DNA from: Aequorivita viscosa
GTDB taxonomy: Bacteria; Bacteroidota; Bacteroidia; Flavobacteriales; Flavobacteriaceae
DNA: 64,000 nt
Assembly: GCF_900106795.1 (NCBI RefSeq)
Contig: NZ_FNNS01000004.1
Span: 62,001-126,000, forward strand
Direction of reading: 5' to 3'
The translations under genes were made by a program, and so were the position numbers. Shown here piece after piece: positions 9,758-60,148 of the stretch. Under the pieces are notes generated by a model. That model worked only from the letters and a program-made list of their open reading frames with translations. It was not told the origin of the DNA and ran no database searches. Position 1 is the stretch's first letter; each line of letters starts with the position of its first letter.

Positions 9758-10048
9758 AACGTTGGAAACACGACTAAAGGGAAACACGAATCACGACATT
9801 TTGAATCACGGCTACTTGGGAACTTGACCTTTTAAACCTTCTATAAATCTCATCCCTGTCTGCTGCGCTTTGGCAGGCCTAAGCCTTTATCGAGGGAAGG
9901 GAGTTATCGGAATTAAATCACAACAAGTCCCAACGATAAATAAGACGATTTCAAAATGTAAACAGTAATATCAGGGCAAAATTAAAATAGAGCCGTGATT
10001 AATCTACAATCAAAAATCGTATATCGTAAATCTAAAATCGCTGCTTCT
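9758..10048. other. intergenic gap between convergent subtilase and ftsE
   Basis: No ORF supported. It contains two copies of GGAAACACGA 16 bases apart (9764 and 9780), related ATCACG words, a GC-richer stretch near 9855-9905, and the heptamer array at 10002-10043. Confidence 0.5.
10002..10043. repeat. period-7 degenerate array, six units
   Basis: Six consecutive heptamers, each starting ATC: ATCTACA, ATCAAAA, ATCGTAT, ATCGTAA, ATCTAAA, ATCGCTG. It ends five bases from the ftsE stop codon. Confidence 0.75.
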
Positions 10049-10732
10049 CTAAACTGTTTTCTGAACGACTTCAAAAATCTGACTATCCTCGCATTTCAAT
10101 GTTTTTGAAGGATATTTTAAAAGGAGGGCGTAATCGTGTGTTGCCATCAAGATGGTGTTTCCGTTTTTATTGATTTCCCGCAAAACCTCCATAACTTCCA
10201 CGCTTGTTTGTGGGTCTAAATTTCCGGTAGGTTCATCTGCGAGAATCAACTCTGGGTCGTTTAGCAAGGCTCTGGCAATTGCAATACGCTGTTGTTCTCC
10301 ACCCGAAAGTTGGTACGGATATTTAAACGCTTTGGTTTTCATATCTACTTTGGCAAGCACTTCGTTGATTCTGTTTTCTTTCGCTACTTTATCTTTCCAG
10401 CCCGTTGCTTTTAATACAAAGTCGAGGTTGCTATGAACGGTGCGATCGTTCAATAACTTAAAGTCCTGAAATACCACGCCAAGTTTGCGTCTTAAAAACG
10501 GAATGTCCCGCTCTTTTAATGTCGCCAAGTCGTAACCTACAATATGGCCCTGACCTTTTTGTAACGGTAGGTCACCATAGAGGGTTTTCATAAAACTACT
10601 TTTTCCAGTTCCAGTTTTTCCAATTAAATACACAAATTCCCCTTTTTCTATCGAGACCGAAACGTCTGAAAGTACGAGATTGTCGCCTTGAAAAATGGAA
10701 GCATCATTTAGGTATAGAACGTGATTGGACAT
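10049..10732 (-). CDS. ftsE: cell-division ABC transporter ATPase FtsE
   Basis: A 227-aa ABC ATPase: Walker A GKTGTGKSS (38-46), Q-loop FQD (88-90), signature LSGGEQQR (142-149), Walker B LILADEPTG (162-170) and H-loop His199. The length and the VFQDFKLLNDRTVHSNL segment are characteristic of FtsE, the cytoplasmic ATPase that with FtsX controls peptidoglycan hydrolases at the septum. No ftsX gene is beside it; in Bacteroidota the two are often separated. Heptamer repeat arrays flank the gene on both sides. Confidence 0.9.
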   Translation of the reverse strand: MSNHVLYLNDASIFQGDNLVLSDVSVSIEKGEFVYLIGKTGTGKSSFMKTLYGDLPLQKGQGHIVGYDLATLKERDIPFLRRKLGVVFQDFKLLNDRTVHSNLDFVLKATGWKDKVAKENRINEVLAKVDMKTKAFKYPYQLSGGEQQRIAIARALLNDPELILADEPTGNLDPQTSVEVMEVLREINKNGNTILMATHDYALLLKYPSKTLKCEDSQIFEVVQKTV

Positions 10733-10737
10733 TGGAA

Positions 10738-10772
10738 TTTTAGATTTTAGAAGTTAGATTTTAGAATGATAA
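10738..10772. repeat. period-7 degenerate array upstream of ftsE
   Basis: Heptamers TTTTAGA, TTTTAGA, AGTTAGA, TTTTAGA, ATGATAA in the + direction, i.e. TCTAAAA-type words reading with ftsE, beginning six bases from its start codon. The word is shared with the array at the gene's other end. Confidence 0.75.
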
Positions 10773-10860
10773 TTACTTTTTATCCAGATGAATCTTTCAT
10801 ATTCTGGTCAACTGGCCAACCTTAAAGAAGACTGTATTGATGTTGAATTATACAATTGTT

Positions 10861-10972
10861 TTCGATTTCAGTTTCAGTTTCGTTTTCTCGTGTTATGAGT
10901 TCAGAGTTCTCTCAAACATCTGTCAAAAATAAGTTGAATTACTGCGAACTGCAACTGAATACTGCTACTTAT
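10861..10972. repeat. short-period repeats (period 6, then about 13)
   Basis: 10861-10890 is five 6-mers beginning TTC (TTCGAT, TTCAGT, TTCAGT, TTCGTT, TTCTCG). 10941-10972 repeats ACTGCGA / ACTGCA / ACTGAAT / ACTGCT / ACTTATTT, alternating 6-7 nt. The second tract reaches the 3' end of the following minus-strand gene. Confidence 0.6.
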
Positions 10973-11430
10973 TTACTATTCAAAAATTTTTCTTTCAATG
11001 CATCAATTTCTTTTTGTTGCTGAAGTGTATAAAGCGTTAGTTCTTCAATTTTCTGAAGCAGTAGTAAATTCATTTCTTTTAATGATATTCCATCTTCTTC
11101 CATTTGTGCTGCGGATGGAACTTGTGGCAAATGAAGGTTCATCTTCAAAAATGTTTCGAGTTCTTCCAAAGAAATCAATTTGTATTCCGGCAAAGTTTCG
11201 GAAAAACCGTTATAATATTTCTCAAAAACATAGTCGGGTGCAACTGCGCCATCTAAATCTACTTTCACTTCTTGGGTGTGAATTGTACCTTTAACCGTCA
11301 AAAGTTCATCGGGTGTGTCGGTTCCAATACCAATTTTACCGTCCTTTTCGGTAATATTTTTAAATGAATTCCGCTGGGCAGTGGCGGAAATTGAAAATAT
11401 AAGTAAACCGAAAATCAATAATCTTTTCAT
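10969..11430 (-). CDS. exported tail-fibre/S74-like repeat-end protein, 153 aa
   Basis: The start was chosen at the ATG giving MKRLLIFGLLIFSISATAQ, a signal peptide; an upstream ATG at 11454 would add eight residues before it. The body has KIGIGTDTPDELLTVKG, then VDLDGAVAPDYVFE and HLPQVPSAAQMEEDGISLKEMN, and a C-terminal Leu/Glu/Gln helix likely to form a coiled coil. This combination is widespread in Bacteroidota proteins labelled tail-fibre-domain or cell-surface proteins, where it often ends longer proteins; here it is nearly alone. Its function is unknown. The gene stands between repeat-rich gaps. Confidence 0.75.
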   Translation of the reverse strand: MKRLLIFGLLIFSISATAQRNSFKNITEKDGKIGIGTDTPDELLTVKGTIHTQEVKVDLDGAVAPDYVFEKYYNGFSETLPEYKLISLEELETFLKMNLHLPQVPSAAQMEEDGISLKEMNLLLLQKIEELTLYTLQQQKEIDALKEKFLNSK

Positions 11431-11509
11431 AGTTATGTCTTTGTGAATTATCAAAATTTAAAAATACGGATTTTTAAATAAGTGGATTGTATTCTAAGTC
11501 CCAAAGGTT

Positions 11510-11534
11510 TTAAATCCTTTGAGGTTTGAATCTG
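11510..11534. repeat. imperfect palindrome (AAAGG...CCTTT)
   Basis: CCCAAAGG, an AT loop, CCTTTGAGG. It resembles the AACC...AGG/CCT...GG palindromes at 14720 and 18261 in the outer arms. It lies in the 245-base gap between divergent genes, which otherwise holds two CAGCGTTATA-like copies 27 bases or so apart (near 11556) and nothing else recognisable. Confidence 0.5.
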
Positions 11535-11670: not shown

Positions 11671-11678
11671 TATCTTTA
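11671..11678 (+). promoter_or_regulatory. -7 like box (TATCTTTA) for the TPR gene
   Basis: One mismatch to TAnnTTTG, 21 bases before the ATG at 11700. Inferred. Confidence 0.4.
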
Positions 11679-14714: not shown

Positions 14715-14719
14715 GAATC

Positions 14720-14752
14720 AAACCTCACAGGTCTCTGAGACCTGTGAGGTTT
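14720..14752. repeat. AGGTCT...AGACCT palindrome, 15-bp stem
   Basis: AAACCTCACAGGTCT, loop CTG, then the complementary arm. It starts five bases after the TPR stop codon and is followed by TTCTTC. It can form a terminator-like hairpin on either strand. It shares the AGGTCT/AGACCT core with 18261-18289 and with the last unit of the 3151-3284 array. Confidence 0.8.
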
Positions 14753-14792
14753 CTTCAAACAAAAACACCACATTAAAAATCTTATAATAAGT

Positions 14793-16505
14793 ATGTCAAA
14801 TAAAGGAATAGTATTGCTCTCGTTCGCGACAACCTTGTTGTTCAATCTTTCAATGTTTTCCCAAGAAAAAGAACTAGGTACAGAAGTGGTAAATATTGTA
14901 AGACCATATACTCCCACAATTTCCGATGCCTTTAAAGTAAAGGAAACTCCAAGTTTAACCGATTCCACGACCACCCAGAAAAAGGAAGTGAAATACAACA
15001 TATTTTCAGTTCCCGTTGCATCTACATTCACGCCAGCAAAGGGAAAGGCAACAGATGTGGAAAAAGTAAAGCGTGAAAAGTTATATAACAACTACGCTAC
15101 CTTAGGTTTTGGAAATTACACAACCATTTTAGGCGAATTGTACAGCAATTTTGAAATCAGCCGTACAGAAAGTGCTGGTTTTTTCTTTCGCCATAATTCT
15201 TCACAGGGCAACATTAAAGGTGTAGAATTGGACAATCAATATTATGACACCAGTTTAGATGCTAATTACACCAATCGTGAAAAAGATTTGACCTACACAA
15301 TCGAAACAGGATTTGAGCATCAAATGTACAATTGGTATGGTGTGCCAACGGGGGTATTTGCACCTCACGTTTTGTCTGATATCGATGCGAAACAAACATA
15401 TTTCAGTGGCTATATTGGCGGCAATTTAACTTTGGCCGATTCGTATTTTGAGAAAAGCGGGCTTACTATCCGCTATTTAGGCGATGCTTTTTCGTCTTCA
15501 GAATTTAATGTGAAGCTTACTCCAGAATTTTCATTTCCTATAGAAAATCTAAATTTGCGAGTAGAAGGAGATATTGATTATTTAAGCGGAAGTTTCGACA
15601 AAAACTATGCGAATACTTCCGATATGAAGTACAGCTTTTTAAATGTAGGCGTTGCGCCATCTATTGCTTTTACAAATGAAGATTTATCAGTTACTTTAGG
15701 AGTAGCAGGGTATTTGGTGATGGATTCAGAAAACAGCGATACCGATTTTTCACTTTATCCAAGATTGAATGCTTCGTATCGCTTAATGGATGAAACTGTT
15801 GTTGTGTATGGAGGAGTAGAAGGCGGAATTCAACAGAATTCATATTACGACTTTAAGGAGGTGAACCCTTTTGTTTCCCCAACCTTATACATTGCGCCAA
15901 CTAAGAATATTTATGAAGGTTTTGGAGGTCTTAAAGGAAAGTTGACAAGTACAGTGGCCTATAATTTTAGAGCGGCTTACGGACAAGACAAAAACAGAGC
16001 GTTGTTTTTAGCGAATCCTAGAAAATCTAATGCACAAGAAGGGTATGAACACGGAAATTCGTTCAATGTTGTTTATGACGAAGTAAACACCTTATCAGTT
16101 TTTGCCGAATTACAAGTGGCTATCTCTAGTGATATCTCATTGGGAATTAATGCAGATTATTTTAATTATAGTACAGACATTCAAAGTGAAGCGTGGAACT
16201 TGCCAAGTTTAAAAGCATCTGTGTTTTCAACTTTTAACATCACAGAACAATTTTATGGAGGCGCTTCCATTTTCTTTGTAGGCGAACGCAAGGATCTTTT
16301 CTTCGGAGACATTCCTACTCCAGAAGTTGTTACGTTGGACGGTTATTTAGATGCCAATGTGCATTTTGGCTACCGATTTACCGACCGACTTTCAGCTTTT
16401 GTAAAAGGAAGCAATCTTTTAAGCGACAACTACCAGAAATGGATGAACTATCCTGTGCAAGGAATCCAAGCATTAGTGGGAGCTACTTATAAGTTTGATT
16501 GGTAA
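14793..16505 (+). CDS. outer-membrane beta-barrel protein (TonB-receptor-like barrel without plug), 570 aa
   Basis: Signal peptide to about residue 24 (FSQ), then a mostly beta-stranded protein with alternating aromatic and polar residues and the C-terminal strand ALVGATYKFDW ending in an aromatic residue, as outer-membrane barrels do. No TonB box or plug domain is apparent; the region 25-100 is Pro/Thr-rich instead. Databases often label such proteins TonB-dependent receptor, but from the sequence it is better called a barrel. Its pairing with the TPR gene upstream suggests a joint envelope function. Confidence 0.75.
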   Translation: MSNKGIVLLSFATTLLFNLSMFSQEKELGTEVVNIVRPYTPTISDAFKVKETPSLTDSTTTQKKEVKYNIFSVPVASTFTPAKGKATDVEKVKREKLYNNYATLGFGNYTTILGELYSNFEISRTESAGFFFRHNSSQGNIKGVELDNQYYDTSLDANYTNREKDLTYTIETGFEHQMYNWYGVPTGVFAPHVLSDIDAKQTYFSGYIGGNLTLADSYFEKSGLTIRYLGDAFSSSEFNVKLTPEFSFPIENLNLRVEGDIDYLSGSFDKNYANTSDMKYSFLNVGVAPSIAFTNEDLSVTLGVAGYLVMDSENSDTDFSLYPRLNASYRLMDETVVVYGGVEGGIQQNSYYDFKEVNPFVSPTLYIAPTKNIYEGFGGLKGKLTSTVAYNFRAAYGQDKNRALFLANPRKSNAQEGYEHGNSFNVVYDEVNTLSVFAELQVAISSDISLGINADYFNYSTDIQSEAWNLPSLKASVFSTFNITEQFYGGASIFFVGERKDLFFGDIPTPEVVTLDGYLDANVHFGYRFTDRLSAFVKGSNLLSDNYQKWMNYPVQGIQALVGATYKFDW

Positions 16506-19230: not shown

Positions 19231-19779
19231 ATGGAAAAGATTTTAAACGAACTTCCCCAAAAAGCAAAAGAAGCCGAAAAGGAAAACAAAAAGTTTTTCG
19301 CAACGCTGAAGAAAAAGCCGCCAAAGCATTTAGATACTTTGATGCAAGAACTTCACGAGGAAGAATTTGAACGTATCGATTGTCTTACTTGCGCCAATTG
19401 CTGCAAAACAACAGGGCCTTTGTTTACAGACAAAGATGTTGAACGTATTTCAAAACATTTCAGGATGAAGCCGCAGCAGTTTATTGAAACCTATTTGCGG
19501 ATTGATGAGGATAAGGATTATGTTTTACAAAGTGTGCCTTGCACTTTTTTAGGAGCGGATAATTATTGCAGTATTTACGATGTTCGCCCAAAAGCCTGCC
19601 GCGAATTCCCCCATACCGACCGAAAAAAGTTCCAACAAATCTCGAATCTTACAATGAAGAATGTCGCTATTTGCCCAGCGGCTTATAATATTGTAGAGGA
19701 AATGAAGAAACGCTTGGGCGTTAAAAATCCAAATAACAATAAGGCAAATTCCAAATCTCAGTATCCAAATCTCAAATAA
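19231..19779 (+). CDS. YkgJ-family cysteine-cluster protein, 182 aa
   Basis: The Cys cluster CLTCANCC, then VPCTFLGADNYCSIYDVRPKACREFPH, matches the YkgJ/Fe-S or zinc-chelating family. Such proteins bind a metal through eight or so conserved cysteines; their role is not established. An N-terminal Lys/Glu-rich helix precedes the cluster, and FRMKPQQFIETYL lies between the Cys groups as in the family. The last eleven residues are encoded by a heptamer repeat tract that runs past the stop codon, so this tail is unlikely to be conserved. Soluble and cytoplasmic. Confidence 0.85.
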   Translation: MEKILNELPQKAKEAEKENKKFFATLKKKPPKHLDTLMQELHEEEFERIDCLTCANCCKTTGPLFTDKDVERISKHFRMKPQQFIETYLRIDEDKDYVLQSVPCTFLGADNYCSIYDVRPKACREFPHTDRKKFQQISNLTMKNVAICPAAYNIVEEMKKRLGVKNPNNNKANSKSQYPNLK

Positions 19780-19786
19780 ATCACAA
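19745..19786. repeat. period-7 array overlapping the YkgJ 3' end
   Basis: Six heptamers in register: CAAATTC, CAAATCT, CAGTATC, CAAATCT, CAAATAA, ATCACAA. The first five encode the end of YkgJ and its stop codon. Confidence 0.75.
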
Positions 19787-19882: not shown

Positions 19883-19930
19883 TTGAAAATTGAATTTTTG
19901 AATTTTGAGTTTTATTTGGAATTTGTCATT
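19883..19930. repeat. inverse-oriented TTTGAAT/TTTGGAA array near the namZ 3' end
   Basis: Words TTGAAAA, TTGAATT, TTTGAATT, TTGAGTT, then TTTGGAATTTG, which is the exact complement of the opening of the array at 19745. Period 7-8. The two arrays face each other across the gap between convergent genes. Confidence 0.6.
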
Positions 19931-19936: not shown

Positions 19937-21235
19937 TTAATTATATAGCAAATACTTCCCCCGTACCTTCTCAAACTTCCCCAGTCCTTCCTTCCAAGAA
20001 TCCCGAATTTCTTCGGCGGATAATCCTTGTTCAATTTGCTGCTGTAGTTGTTTGGTTCCTGCCAATTTCACAAAAAACGAATTGAAGAAATCTTTCTTTT
20101 TGCCATTGGCGTTATAAGCATCAATCAGCCATTCCAAGTTGATTTTATTTAAGCGTGGTTCTTTCCGAAGGTCTTTTCCATAACAAAGTTGCCCTTTGAA
20201 TTTTGGTTCTTTCGAACCTTCATTGGGTTGAGGAGTATATTGAAAAGAATATTTGGAAGCAGGTAAACTCGGAGCACCAAAAACCTGAAATTGCATTTCC
20301 GTTCCGCGACCCGCATTTATAAAAGTACCCTCAAAAAAACAAAGACTTGGATACAAGTTTATGGATTGGTCGTTTGGTAAATTTGGTGATGGTTTTATCG
20401 GAAGTGAGTATAGAGTTTTGCGTGTATAATTCTCCATTTCAATTACGCTCAAATCACATTTCAACCTGTTGTTAAGCCATCCTTCTCCATTTATCATTTT
20501 TGCATATTCACCAATCGTCATTCCGTGAACTATCGGAATTGGGTGCATTCCCACAAAACTTTGATGTTCTTTTTCCAAAATAGGGCCGTCAATATAATGT
20601 CCGTTGGGGTTTGGACGGTCCAGAACGATTACAGAAATCCCCAACTCTGCACAAGCTTCCATTACATAATGCAACGTCGATATATAGGTGTAAAACCGAG
20701 CGCCAACATCTTGAATATCAAAAACCACTACATCAATTCCTTTTAGCTGTTCTGGAGATGGTTTTTTATTGCTTCCGTAAAGCGATATTAATGGAACGCC
20801 CGTTTTGGAGTCAATTCCGTCTTTTACATGCTCGCCTGCATCGGCAGTTCCGCGAAAGCCATGTTCGGGTGCAAATACTTTTTTCACTGAAATTCCATTT
20901 TTTATTAGATAATCTACTAAATGAAATTCCATATAAAAAGTATGTTGAGGTGAGGTTTGATATTCTTCTTCAGCGATATCTTCAACCATCGAGGTCTGAT
21001 TCGCCACAACGCCCACATTTTTTCCTTTCAACAATTTGGAATAAACCTCAAACCGCTCGGCTCCCACAATAATTTTGGAGGCCTGAATCTCTTTTATCTC
21101 TATTTCCTGTTCTCTATTCTCTATTCTTTGCTCTTCATTCTCTTCTCTTTGTTCTTTTTTCTCCACAGAACTTCCACATGAAAAAATAGTCAGAACAATC
21201 AATAAAACTGTATTTTTGAAAAAAGTTAACTTCAT
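19937..21235 (-). CDS. NamZ-type exo-beta-N-acetylmuramidase (DUF1343) lipoprotein, 432 aa
   Basis: The start was set at MKLTFFKNTVLLIVLTIFSC, a lipoprotein signal with Cys20; the longer open frame upstream has no signal and would run into the divergent permease gene. After a highly charged linker (24-51) comes the DUF1343 body: VGVVANQTSMV, FAPEHGFRGTADAGE, SLYGSNKKPSPEQL, VFDIQDVGARFYTYISTL, VLDRPNPNG and GRGTEMQFQVFGAP. NamZ-family enzymes remove MurNAc from the non-reducing end of peptidoglycan fragments, so a role in muropeptide recycling at the outer or inner membrane is likely. The start is nine bases from the divergent permease start. The linker is encoded by a 12-unit heptamer array. 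Confidence 0.85.
   Translation of the reverse strand: MKLTFFKNTVLLIVLTIFSCGSSVEKKEQREENEEQRIENREQEIEIKEIQASKIIVGAERFEVYSKLLKGKNVGVVANQTSMVEDIAEEEYQTSPQHTFYMEFHLVDYLIKNGISVKKVFAPEHGFRGTADAGEHVKDGIDSKTGVPLISLYGSNKKPSPEQLKGIDVVVFDIQDVGARFYTYISTLHYVMEACAELGISVIVLDRPNPNGHYIDGPILEKEHQSFVGMHPIPIVHGMTIGEYAKMINGEGWLNNRLKCDLSVIEMENYTRKTLYSLPIKPSPNLPNDQSINLYPSLCFFEGTFINAGRGTEMQFQVFGAPSLPASKYSFQYTPQPNEGSKEPKFKGQLCYGKDLRKEPRLNKINLEWLIDAYNANGKKKDFFNSFFVKLAGTKQLQQQIEQGLSAEEIRDSWKEGLGKFEKVRGKYLLYN
21082..21165 (-). repeat. coding period-7 array, 12 units, within the NamZ lipoprotein linker
   Basis: Twelve heptamers in perfect register; on the coding strand typical units are TAGAGAA, TAGAGAA, CAAAGAA, CAAAGAG, AAGAGAA. 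Three units span 21 nt, so the protein shows a 7-residue repeat: VEKKEQR, EENEEQR, IENREQE, IEIKEIQ (residues 24-51). Confidence 0.85.
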
Positions 21236-21244
21236 AAGATTTAA

Positions 21245-22480
21245 GTGAATTTCGAATTTTTCATCGCTCGGCGCATCATTGCTTCTAAGGACTATAAAAG
21301 TAGTATTTCGGCACCGATAATAAAAATTGCGATTACTGCTATTGCTATTGGGGTAATTATGATGTTGATCTCCATTGCAACTGGCATTGGACTTCAACAA
21401 AAGATTCGCGAAAAGGTTTCGGCTTTTAATGGCGATATCATCATAACCAATTTTGATACCAACTTTTCCAACGATTCTCAAAACCCCATTTCAAAAGAAC
21501 AACCTTTTTACCCTAAATTTAAAAATGTTGATGGTATAAAGCACGTGCAGGTAACGGCTTCCAAAGGTGGTGTAATCCGCACTGAAACTGATTTTGAAGG
21601 CGTGGTCGTAAAAGGTGTGGGCCACGATTACAACTGGGATTATTTTCAAGATTATCTTGTTAAAGGAAAACTTCCCGATTTTAAAAACGATTTAAATGCA
21701 GACATTTTAATTTCAGAATATCTTGCAAATAGGCTTCATCTAAAACTAGACGACAAGATTGCTACGTTTTTTTTAAACGATGAAGTTTCAAAAGTTCCAA
21801 GACCATTGGGACTTAAAATTGTTGGAATTTATAATAGCGGCTTTCAACAGTTTGATGAACAGTTTATCATTGCTGATATTAGGCATATTCAAAGATTGAA
21901 CAAATGGGATGAAAACCAAATTGGGGCGTTTGAAGTTTTTGTAAACGATTTTGATGAAATTGTTCCCATCGGAGAGGCGGTTTACAACGAAACAGGAAGT
22001 ACACTCGACACCCAAACCATTCGCTACAAATACGCTTCCATTTTTGAATGGTTGGATTTATTCGACTTTAATATTTTGGCAATTATCGGGATTATGATTT
22101 TGGTGGCAGGTATCAATATGATTACCGCGCTTTTGGTTTTGATTTTGGAACGCACGCAAATGATAGGAATCCTAAAAGCAATGGGAAGTAGCGATGGCAG
22201 CGTTCGGAAGATTTTTATTTACAATGCAATGTACCTTATAGCTGTTGGTTTGTTTTGGGGCAATTTAATAGGAATTGGATTGTTGTTAATTCAAAAATAT
22301 GGAAAGGTCTTTAAGCTAAATCCAGACACGTATTACGTAAACGAAGCCCCTGTATACCTGAGTTTGGATTATATTTTAATTTTAAATGCAGGGACCTTTG
22401 TGCTCTGCCTCTTAATGCTTTTAATTCCTTCGTTTATTATTTCCAAAATATCCCCAGTGAAGGCGATTCGGTTTGAATAA
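21245..22480 (+). CDS. LolC/LolE-like ABC transporter permease (FtsX family), 411 aa
   Basis: Starts at GTG with MNFEFFIARRIIASKDYKSS, the usual opening of LolC/E-type permeases in this phylum. There are four predicted membrane helices: one near residues 25-50, a long periplasmic region (about 50-270), then three in the C-terminal half, including ILVAGINMITALLVLILERTQMIGILKAMGSS, the FtsX/LolE signature loop. It would, with an ATPase encoded elsewhere, release lipoproteins from the inner membrane. No LolD-like ATPase is adjacent. Only nine bases separate its start from that of namZ. Confidence 0.83.
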   Translation: MNFEFFIARRIIASKDYKSSISAPIIKIAITAIAIGVIMMLISIATGIGLQQKIREKVSAFNGDIIITNFDTNFSNDSQNPISKEQPFYPKFKNVDGIKHVQVTASKGGVIRTETDFEGVVVKGVGHDYNWDYFQDYLVKGKLPDFKNDLNADILISEYLANRLHLKLDDKIATFFLNDEVSKVPRPLGLKIVGIYNSGFQQFDEQFIIADIRHIQRLNKWDENQIGAFEVFVNDFDEIVPIGEAVYNETGSTLDTQTIRYKYASIFEWLDLFDFNILAIIGIMILVAGINMITALLVLILERTQMIGILKAMGSSDGSVRKIFIYNAMYLIAVGLFWGNLIGIGLLLIQKYGKVFKLNPDTYYVNEAPVYLSLDYILILNAGTFVLCLLMLLIPSFIISKISPVKAIRFE

Positions 22481-24084: not shown

Positions 24085-24193
24085 AGAGTTGTGAGAAGGA
24101 TTCTTTTTCATATATTTACGTAATCTTTATTTACACCTCCCTAGAATACTATTTTAAGTTTATCTGTCAAGAAACCTAAAAGGGCTCAAAGCA

Positions 24194-24291
24194 GTTAGGC
24201 GTTAGGCATCGTAGTAAATAGCTTCAAAATAGCCGCTTATTTCGTGAAAATCGATGTCTTACGTTCTATATCTTATAGTCTTATGTCATAA
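24194..24291. repeat. period-7 repeats upstream of the DUF2851 gene
   Basis: 24194-24214: GTTAGGC, GTTAGGC, ATCGTAG. 24256-24291: GTCTTAC, GTTCTAT, ATCTTAT, AGTCTTAT, GTCATAA (one 8-mer). The second tract resembles 60112-60148. The rest of the 24085-24306 gap shows nothing recognisable. Confidence 0.7.
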
Positions 24292-24306: not shown

Positions 24307-25608
24307 ATGAAAGAGGATTTTCTTCATTATGTATGGAAATTTCAAAAGTTTGAAGCATCTAATTTTAAAACTTCGGATGGCGAAAATCTCCATATTAAAA
24401 ATCAAGGGGCACACAACTTAAATTCAGGTCCCGACTTTTTCAATGCCCAAATCGAACTCGATGGTCAATTATGGGCTGGGAATGTCGAAATTCATATAAA
24501 GTCTTCAGATTGGTATGCGCACGGCCACGAAACAGACGCTGCTTATGACAATGTAATTCTGCACGTAGTCTGGGAACACGACGCCGAAATTTTTAGAAAA
24601 GATGGCTCTGTTGTTCCCACGTTAGTTTTAAAAGAACTTGTCCCAAAATTTACTCTAGTTCGCTATCAAAAACTATTTTCAAAAGAGAAGAAATGGATTA
24701 ATTGTGAAAACGATTTTGCCGATGTAAATTCTTTTATAATTGAAAACTGGTTGGAGCGACTTTATATTGAAAGATTGCAAAAGAAGGGTAAAGTGCTGCT
24801 TCAGGAATTGGAAGAAACACAAAACCATTGGGAAGCTCTTTTGTTTCGAATGTTATGTAAAAATTTTGGCCTGAATATTAATGGCGAATCTTTCTTTAGT
24901 ATTGCGAAATCGGTTGATTTTTCTGTTGTGAAAAAGTCTAGTCCAAATCATCAGAATTTAGAAGCTTTGTTGTTGGGACAAGCTGGATTGCTCGATGGAG
25001 AAAAAGAAGATGGCTATTTTCACTTATTGAAAAAGGATTACGAATATTTAAAACGAAAATTCAATCTTCAAAATGAAGGCATTATCACTCCATTGTTTTT
25101 CAGATTGCGCCCACCAAACTTTCCGACCATTCGGCTTGCTCAGTTAGCAGCACTTTACAATCAACAAGATAATTTGTTTTCGAAAATAATTTCCCTTAAA
25201 AACACTTCAGATTTTTATACACTTTTAGATATTACGGCTAGTGAATATTGGAATACACATTATAATTTTGGAGTGGCTTCAAAAGACAGTAAAAAGCGCA
25301 TTACAAAGAGCTTCATAAACTTGTTAATAATTAATACAGTGCTTCCTATAAAGTTCTGCTACGCGGTTCAACAAGGTCAAGATGCTTCCGAAGAAATATT
25401 GAAAATAGCTTCCGAAATTCCTTCTGAAAAAAATGGAATTGTCGATAAGTTTAATTCATTAAAAAGTATTTCAAAAGCTGCTTATCAAAGCCAAGCCTTG
25501 CTTCAGTTAAAAAGTGAGTACTGCGATAAACACCGCTGTTTGCAATGTGCCATAGGAAACGCTATCGTAGGTTCTGGAATTAAATCAATAGACAACAATG
25601 TTACCTAA
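24307..25608 (+). CDS. DUF2851 family protein, 433 aa
   Basis: The N-terminal MKEDFLHYVWKFQKFE and LNSGPDFFNAQIELDGQLWAGNVEIHIKSSDWY are the diagnostic DUF2851 segments conserved in Bacteroidota. AAYDNVILHVVWEHD follows. Near the C-terminus YCDKHRCLQCAIGN has a three-Cys cluster that could bind a metal. There is no signal peptide or membrane helix, so it is likely cytoplasmic. Function unknown. Its resemblance to restriction-endonuclease-like folds (an early V-E-I-H within a beta strand) is only a suggestion. Confidence 0.85.
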   Translation: MKEDFLHYVWKFQKFEASNFKTSDGENLHIKNQGAHNLNSGPDFFNAQIELDGQLWAGNVEIHIKSSDWYAHGHETDAAYDNVILHVVWEHDAEIFRKDGSVVPTLVLKELVPKFTLVRYQKLFSKEKKWINCENDFADVNSFIIENWLERLYIERLQKKGKVLLQELEETQNHWEALLFRMLCKNFGLNINGESFFSIAKSVDFSVVKKSSPNHQNLEALLLGQAGLLDGEKEDGYFHLLKKDYEYLKRKFNLQNEGIITPLFFRLRPPNFPTIRLAQLAALYNQQDNLFSKIISLKNTSDFYTLLDITASEYWNTHYNFGVASKDSKKRITKSFINLLIINTVLPIKFCYAVQQGQDASEEILKIASEIPSEKNGIVDKFNSLKSISKAAYQSQALLQLKSEYCDKHRCLQCAIGNAIVGSGIKSIDNNVT

Positions 25609-38752: not shown

Positions 38753-38926
38753 TCTAATGCGGTGCTTCCCTGCCAAATTTCGGGAGAAAGCACAATTCAA
38801 CCTAAAATTTCAACAGTTGAGTGAATTTAAGTAAGCTGCTCCCAAGTTTTTTACGAAATTTGAATCAACCTTACACATATCAAGTAACACTTAACAAATA
38901 ATAATAACCAATAAAACATCAAAAAA

Positions 38927-41835: not shown

Positions 41836-41870
41836 ACCTGTAACTTGAAACCTAAAACCTGAAACAAGAC
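41836..41870. repeat. period-7 array abutting the LytTR start codon
   Basis: Five heptamers in register: ACCTGTA, ACTTGAA, ACCTAAA, ACCTGAA, ACAAGAC. Three bases then precede the ATG at 41874. Confidence 0.75.
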
Positions 41871-41873: not shown

Positions 41874-42629
41874 ATGAACGTCATTATCATTGAAGATGAA
41901 AAGCCTTCTGCTCGCTATTTAAAGCGAATGCTTGAAAAGGAAAATGTAACTGTACACCAAATGTTGCACAGTGTTGGTGAAGCCATTGCGTGGTTTCAAA
42001 ACAATCCGCATCCTGATTTAATTTTCTTGGACATTCAATTAAGCGACGGACTTTCTTTTGAGATTTTTGATGTGATACAAATAAAGAGCGCAATCATTTT
42101 CACAACTGCTTTTGATGAGTACGCCCTTCAAGCATTTAAACTTAATAGCATTGATTATTTATTGAAACCTATAGACCAAGACGATCTACATACAGCGGTT
42201 ACTAAATACAAAACATTTCAGCCTACTTCGCAAAACGTGCAATTTGATTTTGAAGATATTAAAAAGCTGCTTGTAAACCCTGTTGCTCAAGAATATAAAA
42301 AGCGGTTTACAACCAAAATCGGTCAGCATATCAAAATGATTGCTGTAGATGACATTGAGTGTTTTTATTCCGAAAATAAAGGTACTTATGCGCACACTAC
42401 AGAAGGTCGCGACTATTTGTTAGAAACGACCTTAGAACAATTAGAATCGGAACTATCTCCAGAATTCTTCTTTAGGATTAGTAGAAAATTTTATGTGAAT
42501 ATCAATTCAATAAAAGATATCATCTCCTATACCAATTCACGCTTACAATTAAAGATGAATAGCTACAAAGACCAAGAAGTAATTGTCGCTCGGGAACGAG
42601 TAAAAGATTTTAAACTTTGGTTGGAGTAG
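41874..42629 (+). CDS. LytTR-family response regulator, 251 aa
   Basis: A CheY-like receiver: acidic pocket IIIEDEKPSAR, phospho-acceptor Asp53 in DLIFLDIQLSDG, Thr in IIFTTAFDEYA, and Lys in DYLLKPI. A linker leads to a LytTR DNA-binding domain (about 147-251) with FTTKIGQHIKMIAVDDIECFYSENKGTY and FFRISRKFYVNINSI. It is the likely partner of the LytS kinase. A heptamer array directly abuts its start codon, so the translation-initiation region lies within a repeat. Confidence 0.9.
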   Translation: MNVIIIEDEKPSARYLKRMLEKENVTVHQMLHSVGEAIAWFQNNPHPDLIFLDIQLSDGLSFEIFDVIQIKSAIIFTTAFDEYALQAFKLNSIDYLLKPIDQDDLHTAVTKYKTFQPTSQNVQFDFEDIKKLLVNPVAQEYKKRFTTKIGQHIKMIAVDDIECFYSENKGTYAHTTEGRDYLLETTLEQLESELSPEFFFRISRKFYVNINSIKDIISYTNSRLQLKMNSYKDQEVIVARERVKDFKLWLE

Positions 42630-49956: not shown

Positions 49957-51264
49957 ATGCGAACAATAAAAAAACATTCACTTTCCGACCTCGAAATGTT
50001 GAAACCCAAAATTTTAAATTGGGCGCAACAATATGAAGAAGTAATTTGGTTAGATGGAAATGATTATCCTCAAAAAGAACAGAACTATCGTGCCGTTTTG
50101 GCGATTGATGCTTTTACTGCTCTAAAGACCGATGCTTATAAAGGCTTCGATAAACTAAGGGAATATCAAAGCACAGCCAAAGATTGGGTTTTCGGTTATC
50201 TCACTTACGACCTTAAAAATGATGTCGAAAATCTTAATTCACAAAATAGTGATGAACTTGATTTTCCAGATTTATACTTTTTCCAACCCAAAAAAGTGTT
50301 TCTGTTTTCAGAAGATTTCGTTGAGGTGCAATACCTGAATATGGTTGCCGATGAAATAGAATCGGACTGGGTATCTATTTTAGAAAACAATTCTTTTGAA
50401 AACAATTCTTTTGAAAATAATTCTTTTGAAAACAAAATTGAAATTCAGAATCGTACATCAAAAAAAGAGTATATTGAAAAGGTCAATAAAGCACTTGAAT
50501 ACATAAAACGAGGAGATATTTATGAAGTGAACTTGTGCCAGGAATTTTATGCAGAAACTACTACCATAGACCCTCTACCAACATTTTTACAGTTGAATGA
50601 AATTTCTAAACCACCTTTTTCGGCATTTCTGAAATTGAATGAATTTTTCGCCCTTTCGGCATCGCCAGAACGTTATATAAAAAAAACTGGAACACGCGTC
50701 ATTTCGCAACCAATTAAAGGAACTGCGAAACGATCAAAAAATAATGAGGAAGATTTAGAATTGGCAAAACAATTAGCCAACGACCCAAAGGAACGTAGTG
50801 AAAATATAATGATTACCGATTTGGTACGAAATGACCTTTCCAAATTTGCAGAAAAAGGAAGTGTTCAAGTAGAAGAACTCTGTGGCGTATATAGTTTTAA
50901 ACAAGTGCATCAGTTAATTTCTACAATAATCTGCGAAGTATCTCCAAGTTCTGAAAGTGTGGATATAATAAGAAATACCTTTCCAATGGGCAGTATGACT
51001 GGCGCACCAAAAGTTTCAGCAATGAAAATTATTGAAGAAATAGAAGATGCAAAAAGAGGGCTTTACAGTGGTGCCATTGGTTATTTTTCACCCAATGGCG
51101 ATTTCGATTTCAACGTTGTTATTCGGAGTATTCTATATAATTCGCTTATAGAATATGTGAGTTTTTCGGTTGGGGGAGCCATCACAACAAACTCAATTCC
51201 TGAAAAAGAATATGAAGAATGTATGTTGAAAGCAAAAGCTATGCGACAGGTTTTGAATAGATAA
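49957..51264 (+). CDS. pabB: aminodeoxychorismate synthase component I (PabB-like), 435 aa
   Basis: The chorismate-binding fold is complete: YIEKVNKALEYIKRGDIYEVNLCQEF, FALSASPERYIKKTG, ISQPIKGTAKRS, NIMITDLVRNDLSKFAEKGSV, FPMGSMTGAPKVSAMKIIEEIE and GLYSGAIGYFSPNGDFDFNVVIRS. It makes 4-amino-4-deoxychorismate for folate; anthranilate synthase is the alternative. tilS follows on the same strand after 95 bases. Residues 143-158 carry an in-frame repeat (ENNSF three times) from a 15-nt DNA repeat, lying between the N-terminal and catalytic parts, probably a surface loop. Confidence 0.85.
   Translation: MRTIKKHSLSDLEMLKPKILNWAQQYEEVIWLDGNDYPQKEQNYRAVLAIDAFTALKTDAYKGFDKLREYQSTAKDWVFGYLTYDLKNDVENLNSQNSDELDFPDLYFFQPKKVFLFSEDFVEVQYLNMVADEIESDWVSILENNSFENNSFENNSFENKIEIQNRTSKKEYIEKVNKALEYIKRGDIYEVNLCQEFYAETTTIDPLPTFLQLNEISKPPFSAFLKLNEFFALSASPERYIKKTGTRVISQPIKGTAKRSKNNEEDLELAKQLANDPKERSENIMITDLVRNDLSKFAEKGSVQVEELCGVYSFKQVHQLISTIICEVSPSSESVDIIRNTFPMGSMTGAPKVSAMKIIEEIEDAKRGLYSGAIGYFSPNGDFDFNVVIRSILYNSLIEYVSFSVGGAITTNSIPEKEYEECMLKAKAMRQVLNR
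50383..50435 (+). repeat. 15-nt in-frame tandem repeat inside pabB
   Basis: Three units GAAAACAATTCTTTT (50383-50427, one substitution in the third) plus a partial fourth. Each unit adds ENNSF, so copy-number change keeps the frame. Confidence 0.9.
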
Positions 51265-57417: not shown

Positions 57418-57501
57418 ATAGTGCAAAAGTTTCTAAGTTGAAATACTACTAGCAACCTATTGAAAATCCATAGTTCTTAACGCTGAACTTATATTTTAAA
57501 A

Positions 57502-59904
57502 ATGCAACATCGTTTTTTATTTTGTTTATTTTTAATATGCAACTTTGGTATTTATGCCCAAACTGTAACTATAATCGATGAAGAAACCAATGTGCCCATT
57601 GAGTTGGTAACTTTAACTAGCGGGACAAAACTTTATACTACTACAAATAGTGAAGGGCAGGCAGACGTCTCAAAATTTAAAGATGCAGAAATCATCGAAA
57701 TCCGAAGCCTTGGATACAAAACCATTGTCAAAAGTTTTCATGAATTGACAACCGATTCTTTCTTACTACTTCTAAAACCAAGCAATCTAAATCTGGATGA
57801 AGTAGTGATTTCTGCTTCAAAATGGAGAAGAAGTAGTGATGATGTGCCCGCGAAGGTCATTTCTATAAGTCCAAGAGAAGTTGCCATACAAAACACCCAA
57901 ACCGCTGCCGATTTATTGGCGATTTCAGGGAAGGTATTTATTCAGAAAAGTCAGCAGGGCGGAGGTAGCCCAATGATTCGAGGGTTTTCCACTAGTCGAT
58001 TGCTTTATTCAGTAGATGGTGTGCGGATGAATACCGCGATTTTCCGTTCGGGCAATTTGCAGAATGTTATCAGTCTAGATCCATTCGCTATAGAAAACAC
58101 CGAAGTGGTCTTTGGCCCAGGTTCGGTGGTTTATGGTAGTGATGCCGTTGGTGGTGTGATGAGTTTCCAAACGCTAACACCCCAATTTTCATTGACCGAT
58201 TCGCCTTTGATACGCGGGAAGGCAAACACGCGCTATTCTTCTGCAAACAATGAGAAAACTGGACATTTTGATGTGAATGTGGGCTTTAAAAAATGGAGTT
58301 TTTTAACAAGTATTAGTGCGTGGGATTACGACAACCTGCGTCAAGGAAGCCACGGCCTAGACGATTATATAAAAGATTATTACGTGCAGCGGCAAAATAA
58401 CGTTGACGTGGTAATTACTCAAGAAGATGAATTACTGCAGATTCCTACGGCATATTCACAGCTTAACATGATGCAGAAAATTCGGTTTCAACCCAATGAA
58501 AAGTGGGATTTTCAATTCGGGTTTCATTATTCAGAAACTTCACCTTATGGGCGTTACGACAGACATCAACGTGTTAAAAATGGAACAGCCCGTTACGCCG
58601 AATGGGATTACGGCCCGCAAATTTGGATGATGAACAATCTAGGAATTGGTTATAATGAATCGAATTTTATTTTTGATCAGATGAACATTCGTTTAGCACA
58701 CCAATGGTTTGAAGAAAGCCGAATAGACAGAGGTTTCAACCAACCAGACCGAAACATTTCTGAAGAAGAAGTAAGCGCATATTCAATAAATGCTGATTTC
58801 ATAAAAGCAACGAGCAACAGGAATACAGTTTTCTACGGACTGGAATACGTTTTAAACGATGTTAAATCCGTTGGCGAAATAACCGATATTACAACAGGAA
58901 TAACTGAAGCAGGGCCAGCGCGCTACCCAAAAAGCACTTGGCAATCAATAGCCGCCTATGTAACGGATGAATTCAAAATGACCGATCGGTTTACGTTAAG
59001 CGCGGGAGCTCGTTACAACCAAATTTTATTGGATTCTGAATTTGATACAACCTTTTATCCCTTTCCCTTTACTGAAGCAAAACTTAACAATGGTGCGTTA
59101 ACGGGAAGTTTGGGATGTGTTTACCGTCCCAGTGGTTCTTGGGTTTTCAGCACCAATCTAGGCACCGCATTTCGCGCGCCCAATGTAGATGATGTAGGAA
59201 AAGTGTTCGATTCTGCCCCGGGACAAGTGGTAGTTCCCAATCCAGATCTTAAACCCGAATACGCTTACAATGTCGATTTAGGTGTTGCGAAGGTATTTGG
59301 AGATGTAGTGAAAATAGATATAACGGGTTATTATACGCATTTAAAAAATTCGATGTTGCGTCGCGACTATCAACTCAACGGTCAGGACAGCATTATGTTT
59401 CAAGGCGAAATGAGTAAGGTGCAAGCCATTCAGAATTCTGCGGTTGCCAATATTTATGGAGTGCAGTTTGGTCTTGAACTAAAATTGCCAAAAGGCTTTG
59501 GGTTTCATACCGACTTCAATTTCCAAAAGGGAGAAGAAGAACTTGAAAATGGCGAGACCAGTCGAATGCGTCACGCAGCACCATTTTTTGGCACCTCTCG
59601 TTTAAATTATAGAAAGGATAAGTTGAGTATGGAGTTCAATGTCGTATTCAATGGGAAAAAGGATTTTGAAGATATGCCTGATGGTGAAAAGAGTAAAAAG
59701 GAAATCTACGCCCTCGACGAAAACGGAAACATTTATTCCCCAGCATGGTACACGCTTAATTTTAAAAGTCTTTATAAACTGAGTAAAACGATTGATGTAA
59801 GTGGAGGAATCGAAAACCTAACCGATCAACGCTACCGACCTTTTGCTTCAGGTATTTCAGGGGCTGGAAGAAATTTTATCTTGGCATTAACTGCTCATTT
59901 TTAA
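57502..59904 (+). CDS. TonB-dependent outer-membrane receptor (heme/hemin-receptor-like plug), 800 aa
   Basis: Signal peptide (1-19, ending YAQ), a short carboxypeptidase-regulatory-like domain (about 20-95), then a plug with EVVISASKWRRSS, QQGGGSPMIRGFSTSRLLYSVDGVRMNTAIF-type sequence and EVVFGPGSVVYGSDAVGGV, and a 22-strand-type barrel ending GAGRNFILALTAHF. GGGSPMIRGF with RLLYSVDGVRMN resembles heme and hemoglobin receptors, but no heme-specific FRAP/NPNL-like pair is certain (ATAFRAPNVDDV and VPNPDLKPEYAY are present). The neighbours give no substrate hint. Confidence 0.87.
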   Translation: MQHRFLFCLFLICNFGIYAQTVTIIDEETNVPIELVTLTSGTKLYTTTNSEGQADVSKFKDAEIIEIRSLGYKTIVKSFHELTTDSFLLLLKPSNLNLDEVVISASKWRRSSDDVPAKVISISPREVAIQNTQTAADLLAISGKVFIQKSQQGGGSPMIRGFSTSRLLYSVDGVRMNTAIFRSGNLQNVISLDPFAIENTEVVFGPGSVVYGSDAVGGVMSFQTLTPQFSLTDSPLIRGKANTRYSSANNEKTGHFDVNVGFKKWSFLTSISAWDYDNLRQGSHGLDDYIKDYYVQRQNNVDVVITQEDELLQIPTAYSQLNMMQKIRFQPNEKWDFQFGFHYSETSPYGRYDRHQRVKNGTARYAEWDYGPQIWMMNNLGIGYNESNFIFDQMNIRLAHQWFEESRIDRGFNQPDRNISEEEVSAYSINADFIKATSNRNTVFYGLEYVLNDVKSVGEITDITTGITEAGPARYPKSTWQSIAAYVTDEFKMTDRFTLSAGARYNQILLDSEFDTTFYPFPFTEAKLNNGALTGSLGCVYRPSGSWVFSTNLGTAFRAPNVDDVGKVFDSAPGQVVVPNPDLKPEYAYNVDLGVAKVFGDVVKIDITGYYTHLKNSMLRRDYQLNGQDSIMFQGEMSKVQAIQNSAVANIYGVQFGLELKLPKGFGFHTDFNFQKGEEELENGETSRMRHAAPFFGTSRLNYRKDKLSMEFNVVFNGKKDFEDMPDGEKSKKEIYALDENGNIYSPAWYTLNFKSLYKLSKTIDVSGGIENLTDQRYRPFASGISGAGRNFILALTAHF

Positions 59905-60050
59905 AGGAGAGAAATTCTTCATATTATTATATTTCGTCCAAAGTCTTGTCACAGATAATCATAAATTTTTCAGACGTTATTCCTTGAAGTGTTTCCCATC
60001 AACTTCTTTTTAATAATTTTGCAGCTTTTTAAAAGGGATTTAAAAAAGTA

Positions 60051-60148
60051 GCAGTTTTCAGTGGCAGTTGGCAGTAGTTTTTTTTTTGATGCTCAGTCGT
60101 TAAGAGAATTAGTCTTACGTCCTATGTCCTAGCAGTCCTACGTCATAA
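60051..60148. repeat. period-7 repeats upstream of the ABC-F gene
   Basis: 60051-60077: CAGT words every 7, 6, 7 nt (GCAGTTG, GCAGTAG). 60112-60148: GTCTTAC, GTCCTAT, GTCCTAGCA, GTCCTAC, GTCATAA. The second tract is close to 24256-24291. It ends 17 bases before the ATG. The rest of 59905-60165 shows no gene. Confidence 0.7.

Follow-up and report, generated by a model that had tools for sequence, protein, structure and literature searches.

S23p (PF05635/TIGR02436, also named 23S rRNA IVP) is the four-helix bundle protein of 23S rRNA intervening sequences (IVSs), although an S23p ORF is not present in all IVSs; RNase III excises IVSs from the transcript, and the ends are not ligated. The rRNA IVSs of Coxiella and Leptospira have complementary borders capable of forming a stem, are patchy in occurrence, and enclose a possibly decaying ORF for S23p, a protein without a known function according to the same source (PMC4990558). 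Heptanucleotides are described separately as the commonest repeat category in most genomes, and slippage set by the polymerase footprint has been put forward for bacteria (Mrazek 2007, as cited in PMC4679880 and PMC4692102). These long simple sequence repeats (SSRs), and the cyanobacterial repeats that include a Calothrix report, are tandem, intergenic, diverse in word and patchy among lineages; the passages of PMC4692102 and PMC4679880 that cite them present them as repeats or slippage products, with no link to S23p. The GGGAATC and GGGGA(T/C)T heptamers of Xanthomonas and Nostoc are likewise intergenic and variable between close species, with inverted repeats mentioned, and are studied as G-quadruplex formers (PMC4692102). 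Closest by host are the TAACTGA arrays and other heptamers reported 5' of start codons in Aequorivita sublithincola, Gramella forsetii and Elizabethkingia, the counterpart spacers of A. capsosiphonis having no obvious array (MacGregor 2015, PMC4679880; its main text does not contain the terms S23, 23S, four helix or intervening). Aequorivita heptamers are thus already in print, and the view of the first-pass annotation that they were undescribed in Flavobacteriaceae was mistaken; literature searches aimed at other questions showed no link to S23p.

The window analysed here is a 64,000-nt stretch of Aequorivita viscosa (GCF_900106795.1, contig NZ_FNNS01000004.1, positions 62,001-126,000, forward strand), and its relevant features are as follows.

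10001-10043, unstranded: heptad array ATC+4 (ATCTACA ATCAAAA ATCGTAT ATCGTAA ATCTAAA ATCG) between convergent genes; lag-7 p=0.0005
10049-10732, minus: ABC transporter ATPase gene with the TCTAAAA array upstream
10724-10772, minus: heptad array TCTAAAA, 5' of the ABC transporter ATPase gene; p=0.0005 (10738-10772), scan segment 10724-10765
19745-19786, plus: CAAATYY array of the first-pass annotation, at the 3' end of the CxxCxxCC-domain gene 19231-19779; period 7 unsupported
19883-19930, minus: TTGAAT-like heptad array immediately 3' of the NamZ gene 19937-21481; scan score 13; newly found
21082-21165, unstranded: pyrimidine heptad array TTCTCTA, lying in the 5' portion of the minus-strand NamZ ORF as called; p=0.0005, score 20
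24162-24291, plus, limits approximate: insert in the 5' leader of the DUF2851 gene, with GTTAGGC twice and GTCTTAC-type heptads
24307-25608, plus: DUF2851 gene (PF11013, 2.4e-147), its leader carrying the insert
38874-38926, plus: CACATAT-like heptad array; scan score 11 at 38878-38923; newly found
41836-41870, plus: heptad array ACCTGAA, its end 3 nt 5' of the LytTR response regulator start codon (gene 41874-42629); p=0.0005
60051-60148, plus: insert of CAGT heptads followed by GTCTTACGTCCTATGTCC heptads, in the 5' leader of the ABC-F gene
60166-61803, plus: ABC-F type ATPase gene (two ABC_tran stretches and ABC_tran_Xtn), its leader carrying the insert

Each interval was tested for lag-7 self-matching against shuffles of its own surroundings, with lags 4-12 compared. 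Of the seven arrays first noted, four are strong (10002-10043, 10738-10772, 21082-21165 and 41836-41870, with 7 the best lag in each), 60051-60148 is moderate (p=0.0045) and 24194-24291 is weak (p=0.033); the seventh, 19745-19786, falls away (p=0.08, with lag 11 higher). A scan of the whole window at a single threshold returns six lag-7 segments against 0.7 expected, including two that had been missed (19883-19930 and 38878-38923); lags 5, 6, 8, 9 and 10 give 0-2 segments. The 21082-21165 array precedes the NamZ Pfam domain, as NamZ_N begins at residue 156 of the ORF, and the ORF after NamZ, an FtsX permease, is at 21245.

The signal extends across the genus. Sampled spacers of five Aequorivita genomes contain 66 strong arrays (score >=14) with 54 distinct words, against 0.7 arrays in shuffles, and lag 7 is the top lag in all intergenic DNA of each genome (z = 7.7, 10.5, 8.8, 4.8 and 6.7), bearing out the earlier description of a common period with unshared words. 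Lag 14 is raised in four of the five and lag 21 in three, with smaller excesses at lags 6 and 8 and, in the genome of the window (5.9), at lag 11. The autocorrelation check that had been proposed thus succeeds in intergenic DNA. In coding DNA the lag-7 match rate is not raised (25.94%, versus 25.45-25.96% at lags 4, 10, 13, 16, 19 and 22), though step 7 has a few more in-register chains (210) than the other steps counted (159-183). No intergenic lag-7 excess is seen in sampled E. coli DNA or in six of seven non-Aequorivita genomes sampled singly. As tandem 7-nt units beyond chance in non-coding DNA, the arrays qualify as heptanucleotide SSRs (or STRRs). They do not belong to the TAACTGA class, which is one fixed word (PMC4679880), whereas these have many words, paired arms and an S23p partner (see below); two of the 66 have a consensus within one mismatch of TAACTGA, neither in the genome of the window. 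Their words are also mostly not the G-runs of the Xanthomonas and Nostoc heptamers.

Much of this is what polymerase-footprint slippage predicts, if a 7-nt step were favoured for any word in unconstrained DNA and its products later decayed, with S23p irrelevant; we regard this as unlikely, but as a serious alternative. The words are no more alike than chance, since single linkage at one mismatch gives 12 clusters (the largest with 52 of the 66 arrays) against 16 (range 9-24) for random words of the same composition. Arrays range from perfect to decayed, coding DNA is spared a raised match rate, and across spacers in general direct and inverted partners of an array are similarly frequent (10/97 and 12/97 respectively, p<=0.01). 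Mismatches within units are spread as expected from neutral duplication plus mutation, so slippage alone could produce arrays that have no ORF. The arrays are also species-specific: among 937 orthologous spacer pairs, one (score >=12) is present in a single member in 29 and in both members in 1. Slippage must however invoke a lineage-specific polymerase, since heptads are missing in the sampled E. coli DNA and in all but one of the seven other genomes.

Array-bearing inserts vary between species. By eye, the 24162-24291 insert is missing in 19 of 19 Aequorivita or near relatives, whose short DUF2851 leaders retain similar promoter-like and CTCCCC stretches. The ABC-F leaders of 17 relatives, also compared by eye, have a similar promoter-like stretch followed by either a leader of a few nucleotides (8/17, in which the 60051-60148 insert is absent) or a long insert (9/17). 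Inserts of ~100 nt between a promoter-like stretch and a start codon are not predicted by slippage.

The positions of arrays relative to genes bear on two further explanations. Tandem arrays end <=10 nt before a start codon in 22 of 53 cases against 9.1 expected, and the lag-7 excess is greatest in the last 20 nt 5' of the start, as would be expected of binding sites for a post-transcriptional regulator (ribosomal protein S1 or a cold-shock protein, for example), which is MacGregor's proposal for TAACTGA (PMC4679880). Such translational control is improbable as a general explanation, as the stop-codon side is enriched too (15/53 just after stops, against 9.1), the arrays are rarely retained at orthologous genes, and their words differ widely. 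Rho utilisation sites, with YC dinucleotides every 7 nt in nascent RNA, seemed plausible while a first sample appeared sense-specific (TC ratio 1.6 in co-directional spacers, divergent spacers having no YC excess), and a Rho protein is present. In a larger sample the sense-strand enrichment of GA at lag 7 equals that of TC (ratios 1.64 and 1.54), with GA heptads in the 5' part of spacers and TC heptads in the 3' part, and the YC spacings given in a rut descriptor are 9-13 nt (PMC9160355). The strand-specific C-rich and G-poor composition is thus lacking, which refutes Rho sites as the general cause and leaves them scarcely credible.

S23p genes outside the window are found as extra ORFs among operon genes, bordered by heptad arrays, and the proteins of these flanked loci exceed the curated cut-off for PF05635/TIGR02436. 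Each of 28 Aequorivita genomes has 5-21 S23p matches and 14 control genomes have none. In the first set of flanks, comprising the loci that prompted the idea and the remaining ones (14 distinct loci, 25 flanks >=20 nt), lag 7 reaches p<=0.01 in 13 flanks and other lags in 0-2. The later sets were chosen by S23p alone, before their flanks had been seen: 12 Aequorivita loci (23 flanks) have lag 7 in 7, lag 8 in 12, and lags 5, 6, 9 and 10 in 0-1; eight loci of other genera or families (13 flanks) have lag 7 in 9 and others in 0-1; and 16 plasmid loci, 14 of them cyanobacterial (30 flanks), have lag 7 in 21, lag 8 in 8 and others in 0-2. Among other small genes of Aequorivita lag 7 is found in 26/356 flanks and lag 8 in 8/356, and on four of the same plasmids lag 7 is found in 5/40 small-gene flanks and 6/82 spacers. 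Arrays of period 7 (or 8) are therefore much commoner beside S23p genes than beside other small genes, and cyanobacteria including Calothrix have S23p genes with heptad flanks. Slippage predicts neither this enrichment next to one protein family across several phyla nor the period of 8, whose presence at a number of S23p loci means that the value 7 is not invariant. Locus L235 has no array, and the flanks of L234 are not significant at lag 7 (p 0.08 and 0.09) but are at lag 6. The window shares its word with L234. Period 7 or 8 tracks the S23p tree (4 changes versus 7.3 shuffled, p=0.0045), a pattern that descent can explain too. Copy number does not map simply onto genome-wide heptads: one genome with heptads (G056) has 3 S23p matches, and three (G021, G050 and G055) have no heptad excess despite 5, 4 and 4.

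Both arrays of an S23p locus have a common word, mostly inverted and in a minority direct. The inverted score of a locus's own 5' and 3' flanks is 17.7 versus 8.8 for mismatched pairs at 28 loci, and 19.0 versus 9.9 at 14 plasmid loci (permutation p=2e-4 for both; 2e-4 to 1.4e-3 across the locus sets), and for other small genes the paired-arm score is 10.3 versus 9.6. Direct matching is also above chance (13.7 versus 8.2, and 13.5 versus 6.9 respectively); inverted is clearly superior at 19/28 and 10/14 loci, and direct at 7/28 and 3/14. Arms with a common word on both sides of an ORF are not predicted by slippage. They would also arise if an S23p ORF inserted within a single array or hairpin. 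On this hot-spot alternative, heptad hairpins form by themselves in operon spacers, and S23p genes are inserted or tolerated there. The paa operon has hairpins with different words at several junctions in two species (paa genes, presumably, are also among the S23p neighbours), and 60 of the 66 strong arrays lack an adjacent S23p gene. We consider this origin doubtful, as arms around S23p ORFs match far above mismatched pairs, and related S23p genes at unrelated sites have the same word in two cases (L259 with L234, and L255 with L080_4874). Word sharing is otherwise mostly among close S23p pairs, in most of which the insertion site is common by descent, and flank word and protein identity show no overall correlation (Mantel p=0.27).

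The ORF-less arrays have words in common with S23p flanks beyond chance: at E<=1e-3, 29 of the 60 have a counterpart among the sampled S23p flanks, where arrays with permuted words give 12.3 (8-21), and the other 31 have none. PF05635 has no match on the window's contig, and three of its nine arrays (10002, 24194 and 60051) share words with S23p flanks. The 10001-10043 array is identical over 19/19 nt, as reverse complement, to the 5' flank of locus L240 in the same genome (E=4e-5), and the 24162-24291 insert matches the 3' flank of L250 over 36 nt at 81% (E=4.7e-6). For the 60051-60148 insert there are matches to L234, an S23p locus of the same genome, on its 5' and 3' sides alike (E=1.2e-4 and 3.7e-4), and again to L250 in its 3' flank (40 nt, 82.5%, E=4.7e-6). 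Matches are borderline for 19883-19930 (L242, E=0.001) and weak for 10724-10772 (L256, E=0.007) and 38874-38926 (L262, E=0.004); 21082-21165 and 41836-41870 have none to sampled S23p flanks at E<=0.01.

These loci differ from the rRNA IVSs in that their arms are tandem 7- or 8-mers and in that they adjoin protein-coding genes rather than sitting in rRNA genes (PMC4990558). S23p neighbours, where called or annotated, are protein-coding (e.g. cas6/cas4 and cas10/cmr3), an Rfam scan of the window gives no match, and identity with rRNA IVSs, which calls for a 16S or 23S insertion, is rejected. Complementary stem-forming borders characterise the S23p loci as a group but not the window's two array-bearing leaders, which fold no better than shuffles (z 0.58 and -1.04); an enclosed S23p ORF is absent from the window and present by construction at S23p loci elsewhere. 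Sense-strand hairpin arms have 49 G-U and 77 A-C mismatches, with no G-U excess. Two of five S23p proteins match Avd, a protein of diversity-generating retroelements (DGRs) encoded beside a reverse transcriptase, weakly (NF033474, E=1e-5 and 1e-7); their bit scores of 25.5 and 31.8 fall short of the curated cut-off of 80 for Avd.

The likeness of the window's heptamers to the S23p-gene borders of very different bacteria suggests a common origin, and we favour, with a probability of roughly 0.6, the reading that the heptad arrays represent repeat arms, for the most part without an ORF or decayed, belonging to a dispersed class of S23p-gene elements. A complete element would consist of a 5' array, one S23p gene and a 3' array that repeats the 5' word, in most cases reverse-complemented. 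Such elements would lie in transcribed spacers and leaders, as a rule 3' of a co-directional gene; the upstream neighbour is co-directional at 14/14 and 16/16 determined loci and 12/14 annotated plasmid loci, over a high baseline of 231/283 small genes. Once transcribed the arms would fold as a hairpin, as in rRNA IVSs, which RNase III may cut. S23p relatives in the PDB (2gsc and 2rld) have five chains each, and an S23p ring probably touches the arms with one subunit per repeat unit, which would retain the period even as the word changes. Units would be spread and homogenised through slippage and through exchange between arms, and copies lacking an ORF would either survive in hairpin form or be reduced by decay to lone arms like the ones in the window. 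A mobile element had been dismissed for want of shared sequence, yet the arrays resemble the borders of a class of element that keeps period and pairing while the word varies by copy. Of the two causes offered in its place, a bare period is probably not the cause, and a repeat-reading protein is an option that stands, with S23p, we infer, as the reader.

Heptamers are on record from cyanobacteria, Xanthomonas, Beggiatoaceae and Bacteroidetes, and their length has so far been explained by the slippage idea alone. Tentatively, and with less than even confidence, heptamer (and octamer) repeats from Flavobacteriaceae to Nostocales could be largely the arms of one S23p superfamily, whose ring-shaped proteins would read and set a period of 7 or 8 but leave the word to vary, with the ORF-less hairpins of operon spacers, mRNA leaders and CRISPR operons as their non-autonomous dependants. 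Joining the repeats to S23p, a family with solved structures, makes them candidate binding or boundary arms and gives the protein a candidate ligand. The link predicts in which genomes heptamers should be present, and suggests that a class of small elements lives inside operons, CRISPR operons included.

Seven arrays sharing a 7-nt period were proposed for the window in the first-pass annotation; four of these are strong, one is moderate and one weak, the remaining one is unsupported, and two further arrays had been missed. The arrays and genes discussed here, and other repeats of the window, are:

3150-3276, 21-nt tandem repeat in six copies (97% match) among small overlapping ORFs
10002, start of a heptad array
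14715-14852, palindromes in a spacer, around AGACCTGTGAGGTTT and CCTTGTAGG
19883, start of a heptad array
24194, start of a heptad array
24307-25608, + strand, DUF2851 gene
50379-50435, 15-nt repeat, 3.8 copies, within ORF 49957-51264
60051, start of a heptad array
60166-61803, + strand, ABC-F gene
62573-63434, 390-nt direct repeat, 2.2 copies, 73%, within ORF 62487-63716, the product of which is thus internally repetitive

The palindromes are dispersed, recurring in the sampled stretches L034, L035, L041 and L044, and look like a repeat class separate from the heptads. An Rfam scan of the window at gathering thresholds gave no match.

In the autocorrelation test that the first-pass annotation proposed, lag 7 is raised in the intergenic DNA of all five Aequorivita genomes sampled (z = 7.7 in the A. 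viscosa genome, 10.5 in G001, 8.8 in G016, 4.8 in G015 and 6.7 in G002, from 697 kb including the window, 480 kb, 400 kb, 200 kb and 200 kb respectively; one A. viscosa convergent spacer containing N was left out), and no comparable peak was found in 150 kb of E. coli K-12 (z -0.1) or in three genomes from outside the family (z 2.3, 0.1 and -0.6). Intergenic DNA of the window alone gives z 2.9 at lag 7 and 3.8 at lag 21, the latter value being inflated by the tandem repeat at 3150-3276; with 12 more 20-kb stretches of the same genome, lag 7 reaches z 7.15 and the next-highest lags ~3.5. Chains, defined as in-register runs of at least four copies of a G/C-containing dinucleotide, number 75, 61, 51, 11 and 36 at step 7 in the five genomes (same order) versus 5.8, 2.4, 1.8, 1.0 and 2.6 in shuffled DNA; counts are low at steps 5 and 6, and three of these genomes have a clear excess at step 8. 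The lag-7 match rate of coding DNA is not raised. Weak lag-7 peaks are seen in pooled short loci of other Flavobacteriaceae (z 3.3) and other Bacteroidota (z 2.9). Three of four other Flavobacteriaceae genera sampled have no lag-7 excess (z 2.0, -0.9 and -0.3), and intergenic DNA of the fourth (G056, stretches L224-L228) has z 8.1 with excesses also at lags 8, 11 and 22, a richer mix than in Aequorivita.

The arrays favor co-directional spacers, with densities at score at least 14 of 3.85 per 10 kb of spacer, compared to 1.59 where the genes converge and 1.12 where they diverge. The end of an array is no more than 10 nt from the next start codon in 22 of 53 cases, and its beginning no more than 10 nt from the previous stop in 15 (9.1 expected for each). 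Of the 97 arrays tested from the first three genomes, 12 are partnered at p<=0.01 by a reverse-complement copy within their spacer, where 1 is expected (p<=0.005 for 10 of the 12); direct partners at the same p<=0.01 cut-off number 10. GA-heptads lie toward the 5' side of the spacer and TC-heptads toward the 3' side, as hairpin arms would give; among spacers 45-130 nt long, 17 GA chains average a relative position of 0.33 and 12 TC chains one of 0.67 (p=4e-4). Folding of two examples is much more favorable than that of shuffled sequence (z -7.8 and -5.1), and the two array-bearing leaders of the window fold no better than shuffles (z 0.58 and -1.04). Rho utilisation sites, to which the first sample pointed, were rejected when a larger sample showed GA to be as periodic as TC, and selection on hairpin arms at the RNA level was rejected for want of a G-U excess over A-C mismatches (49 versus 77).

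The arrays turn over between relatives. The spacer before the DUF2851 gene, whose protein is 69-74% shared with records named Aequorivita, is 222 nt in the window, with the heptads within the extra length, and measures 45-57 nt in each of 12 listed relatives; all 19 leaders compared from relatives are short. By eye, the ABC-F leaders of 17 relatives keep a similar promoter-like stretch followed by a few nt (eight) or by a long insert (nine), several of the inserts carrying inverted GGACGTAAGAC/GTCTTACGTCC arms. Among 937 orthologous spacer pairs, arrays (score at least 12) are present in one member of 29 and in both members of only one (0.26 expected); this pair, from G001 and G016, has spacers of 91 and 89 nt with a common hairpin plan and different words. 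At this score a spacer with an array exceeds its orthologue in length in 22 cases and is shorter in seven, and at score at least 10 there is hardly a difference (21 and 17). Lengths of orthologous spacers show no clear peak of differences at multiples of 7 (four pairs differ by 7 nt, 13 by 3 nt and eight by 1 nt).

The operon around the shared pair in G001 and G016 contains what we take to be paa genes, and the S23p link arose here; an extra OR​F in the operon matches PF05635, the 23S rRNA-intervening sequence protein (S23p). S23p ORFs lie between genes of this operon in two Aequorivita species (L061 12536-17781 and L080 3873-9355), and several of its junctions carry hairpins of differing words. 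PF05635 matches number 5-21 in each of 28 Aequorivita genomes, and there are none in 14 control genomes. In the sampled DNA an array is present in 6/13 spacers beside S23p genes, a count that takes in the loci from which the idea arose, versus 80/1242 other spacers. Among 25 flanks of at least 20 nt at 14 distinct S23p loci (three found twice were entered once, L242 and L243 fell below the profile threshold, and a few have 5' flanks that include some S23p coding sequence owing to the choice of start codon), 13 are periodic at lag 7 at p<=0.01 and 0-2 at other lags, and in 7 of 11 cases the 3' flank of a locus outscores all others as inverted partner for its 5' flank (permutation p=2e-4). Stop codons interrupt S23p in L235, L236, L239, L242 and other copies in the genus, as expected of decaying element genes.

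The association extends to loci chosen blind. Twenty of 78 S23p matches, mostly high-scoring and all outside the stretches already read, were picked before their flanks were seen. In Aequorivita (12 loci, 23 flanks) seven flanks show lag 7, 12 show lag 8 and 0-1 show others, and in other genera and families (eight loci, 13 flanks) nine show lag 7 and 0-1 others; inverted arm matching is 19.95 versus 8.6 for mismatched pairs (p=2e-4) and 18.6 versus 9.1 (p=1.4e-3) respectively. A protein search with one S23p query found S23p in 40 of 72,556 plasmid records, 38 of them cyanobacterial by name (including Nostoc 17 and Calothrix 4) and the others from Azospirillum and Gemmatirosa; phage records searched with one query protein gave none. 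In 30 flanks from 16 of the 40 plasmids, mostly the longest matches, lag 7 is present in 21, lag 8 in eight, and lags 5, 6, 9 and 10 in 0-2, with inverted arms at p=2e-4 and the arm from the locus itself the best partner in 8 of 15; some of these loci are not independent of each other (L265 is nearly a copy of L266, and L274 and L275 are alike), and two lack gene annotation and were therefore given fixed flank limits. As controls, Aequorivita flanks of small genes other than S23p show lag 7 in 26/356 and lag 8 in 8/356, and across 100 kb taken from four of these plasmids lag 7 occurs in 5/40 small-gene flanks and 6/82 spacers; inverted matching in controls is 10.3 versus 9.6 (Aequorivita) and 8.6 versus 7.9 (plasmids). 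At loci L270, L271 and L273 of cyanobacterial plasmids the S23p genes lie within CRISPR operons, at cas6-cas4 and cas10-cmr3-family junctions, with flank periods of 7 or 8.

Taking every S23p locus with two usable flanks, inverted matching of own versus mismatched arms is 17.7 versus 8.8 at 28 loci and 19.0 versus 9.9 at 14 plasmid loci, and direct matching, too, exceeds chance (13.7 versus 8.2 and 13.5 versus 6.9; p=2e-4 for each of the four), showing that the two sides have one word in common. Inverted order is clearly better at 19/28 and 10/14 loci and direct order at 7/28 and 3/14; inversion is the rule, though not universal. Because direct partners are common too, we hold slightly less firmly to an origin in S23p elements, and slightly more to slippage set by a polymerase footprint or to hot-spot spacers. 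PMC4679880 and PMC4692102, citing Mrazek 2007, give heptamers as the commonest long SSR category and relay the polymerase-footprint idea, and the former reports heptamer arrays in Aequorivita. We favor the arrays being arms of S23p elements, mostly ORF-less or decayed, with a probability of about 0.6.

The window's contig has no S23p gene. At E<=1.3e-4, three of the window's nine arrays have matches among S23p flanks, that at 10002 to L240, that at 24194 to L250, and that at 60051 to both L250 and L234. The array at 19883 is borderline (E 0.001); shuffled arrays match at 0.001 in a mean of 0.33 of nine, with a maximum of one. Genus-wide, matches to a sampled S23p flank exist for 29 of the 60 ORF-less arrays, versus 12.3 when words are permuted. 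The other arrays may derive from S23p types outside the sample or have arisen by simple slippage.

The best period (7 or 8 in 30 of 35 loci, 6 in two, 9 in one and none in two) follows the S23p tree, with four changes between 7 and 8 versus 7.3 when shuffled (p=0.0045). This could reflect descent, since pairs above 70% identity have words and mostly the insertion site in common. Pure descent is disfavored, as L254 and L244 (51% protein identity) both have period 8 with unrelated words, and two of the pairs checked have a common word at sites whose neighbours do not match. Flank words show no overall correlation with S23p protein identity (p=0.27). The pattern of constant and variable positions within units, considered as a sign of a reading protein, is significant in 7/45 arrays at p<=0.05 (16%) versus 13.5% in a neutral duplicate-and-mutate simulation, and so provides no evidence for one. 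That S23p reads the repeat period is a hypothesis, to which the five chains in PDB entries of S23p relatives, and the toroidal homopentamer of Lin 2006 as cited in PMC4990558, lend indirect support.

For rRNA genes, PMC4990558 already describes elements in which complementary borders enclose an S23p ORF. The literature listings, from searches on the two subjects separately, do not contain the S23p-heptamer link. Within that scope, the pairing of tandem heptamers or octamers as borders on either side of operon-borne S23p genes, across several phyla, may be new.
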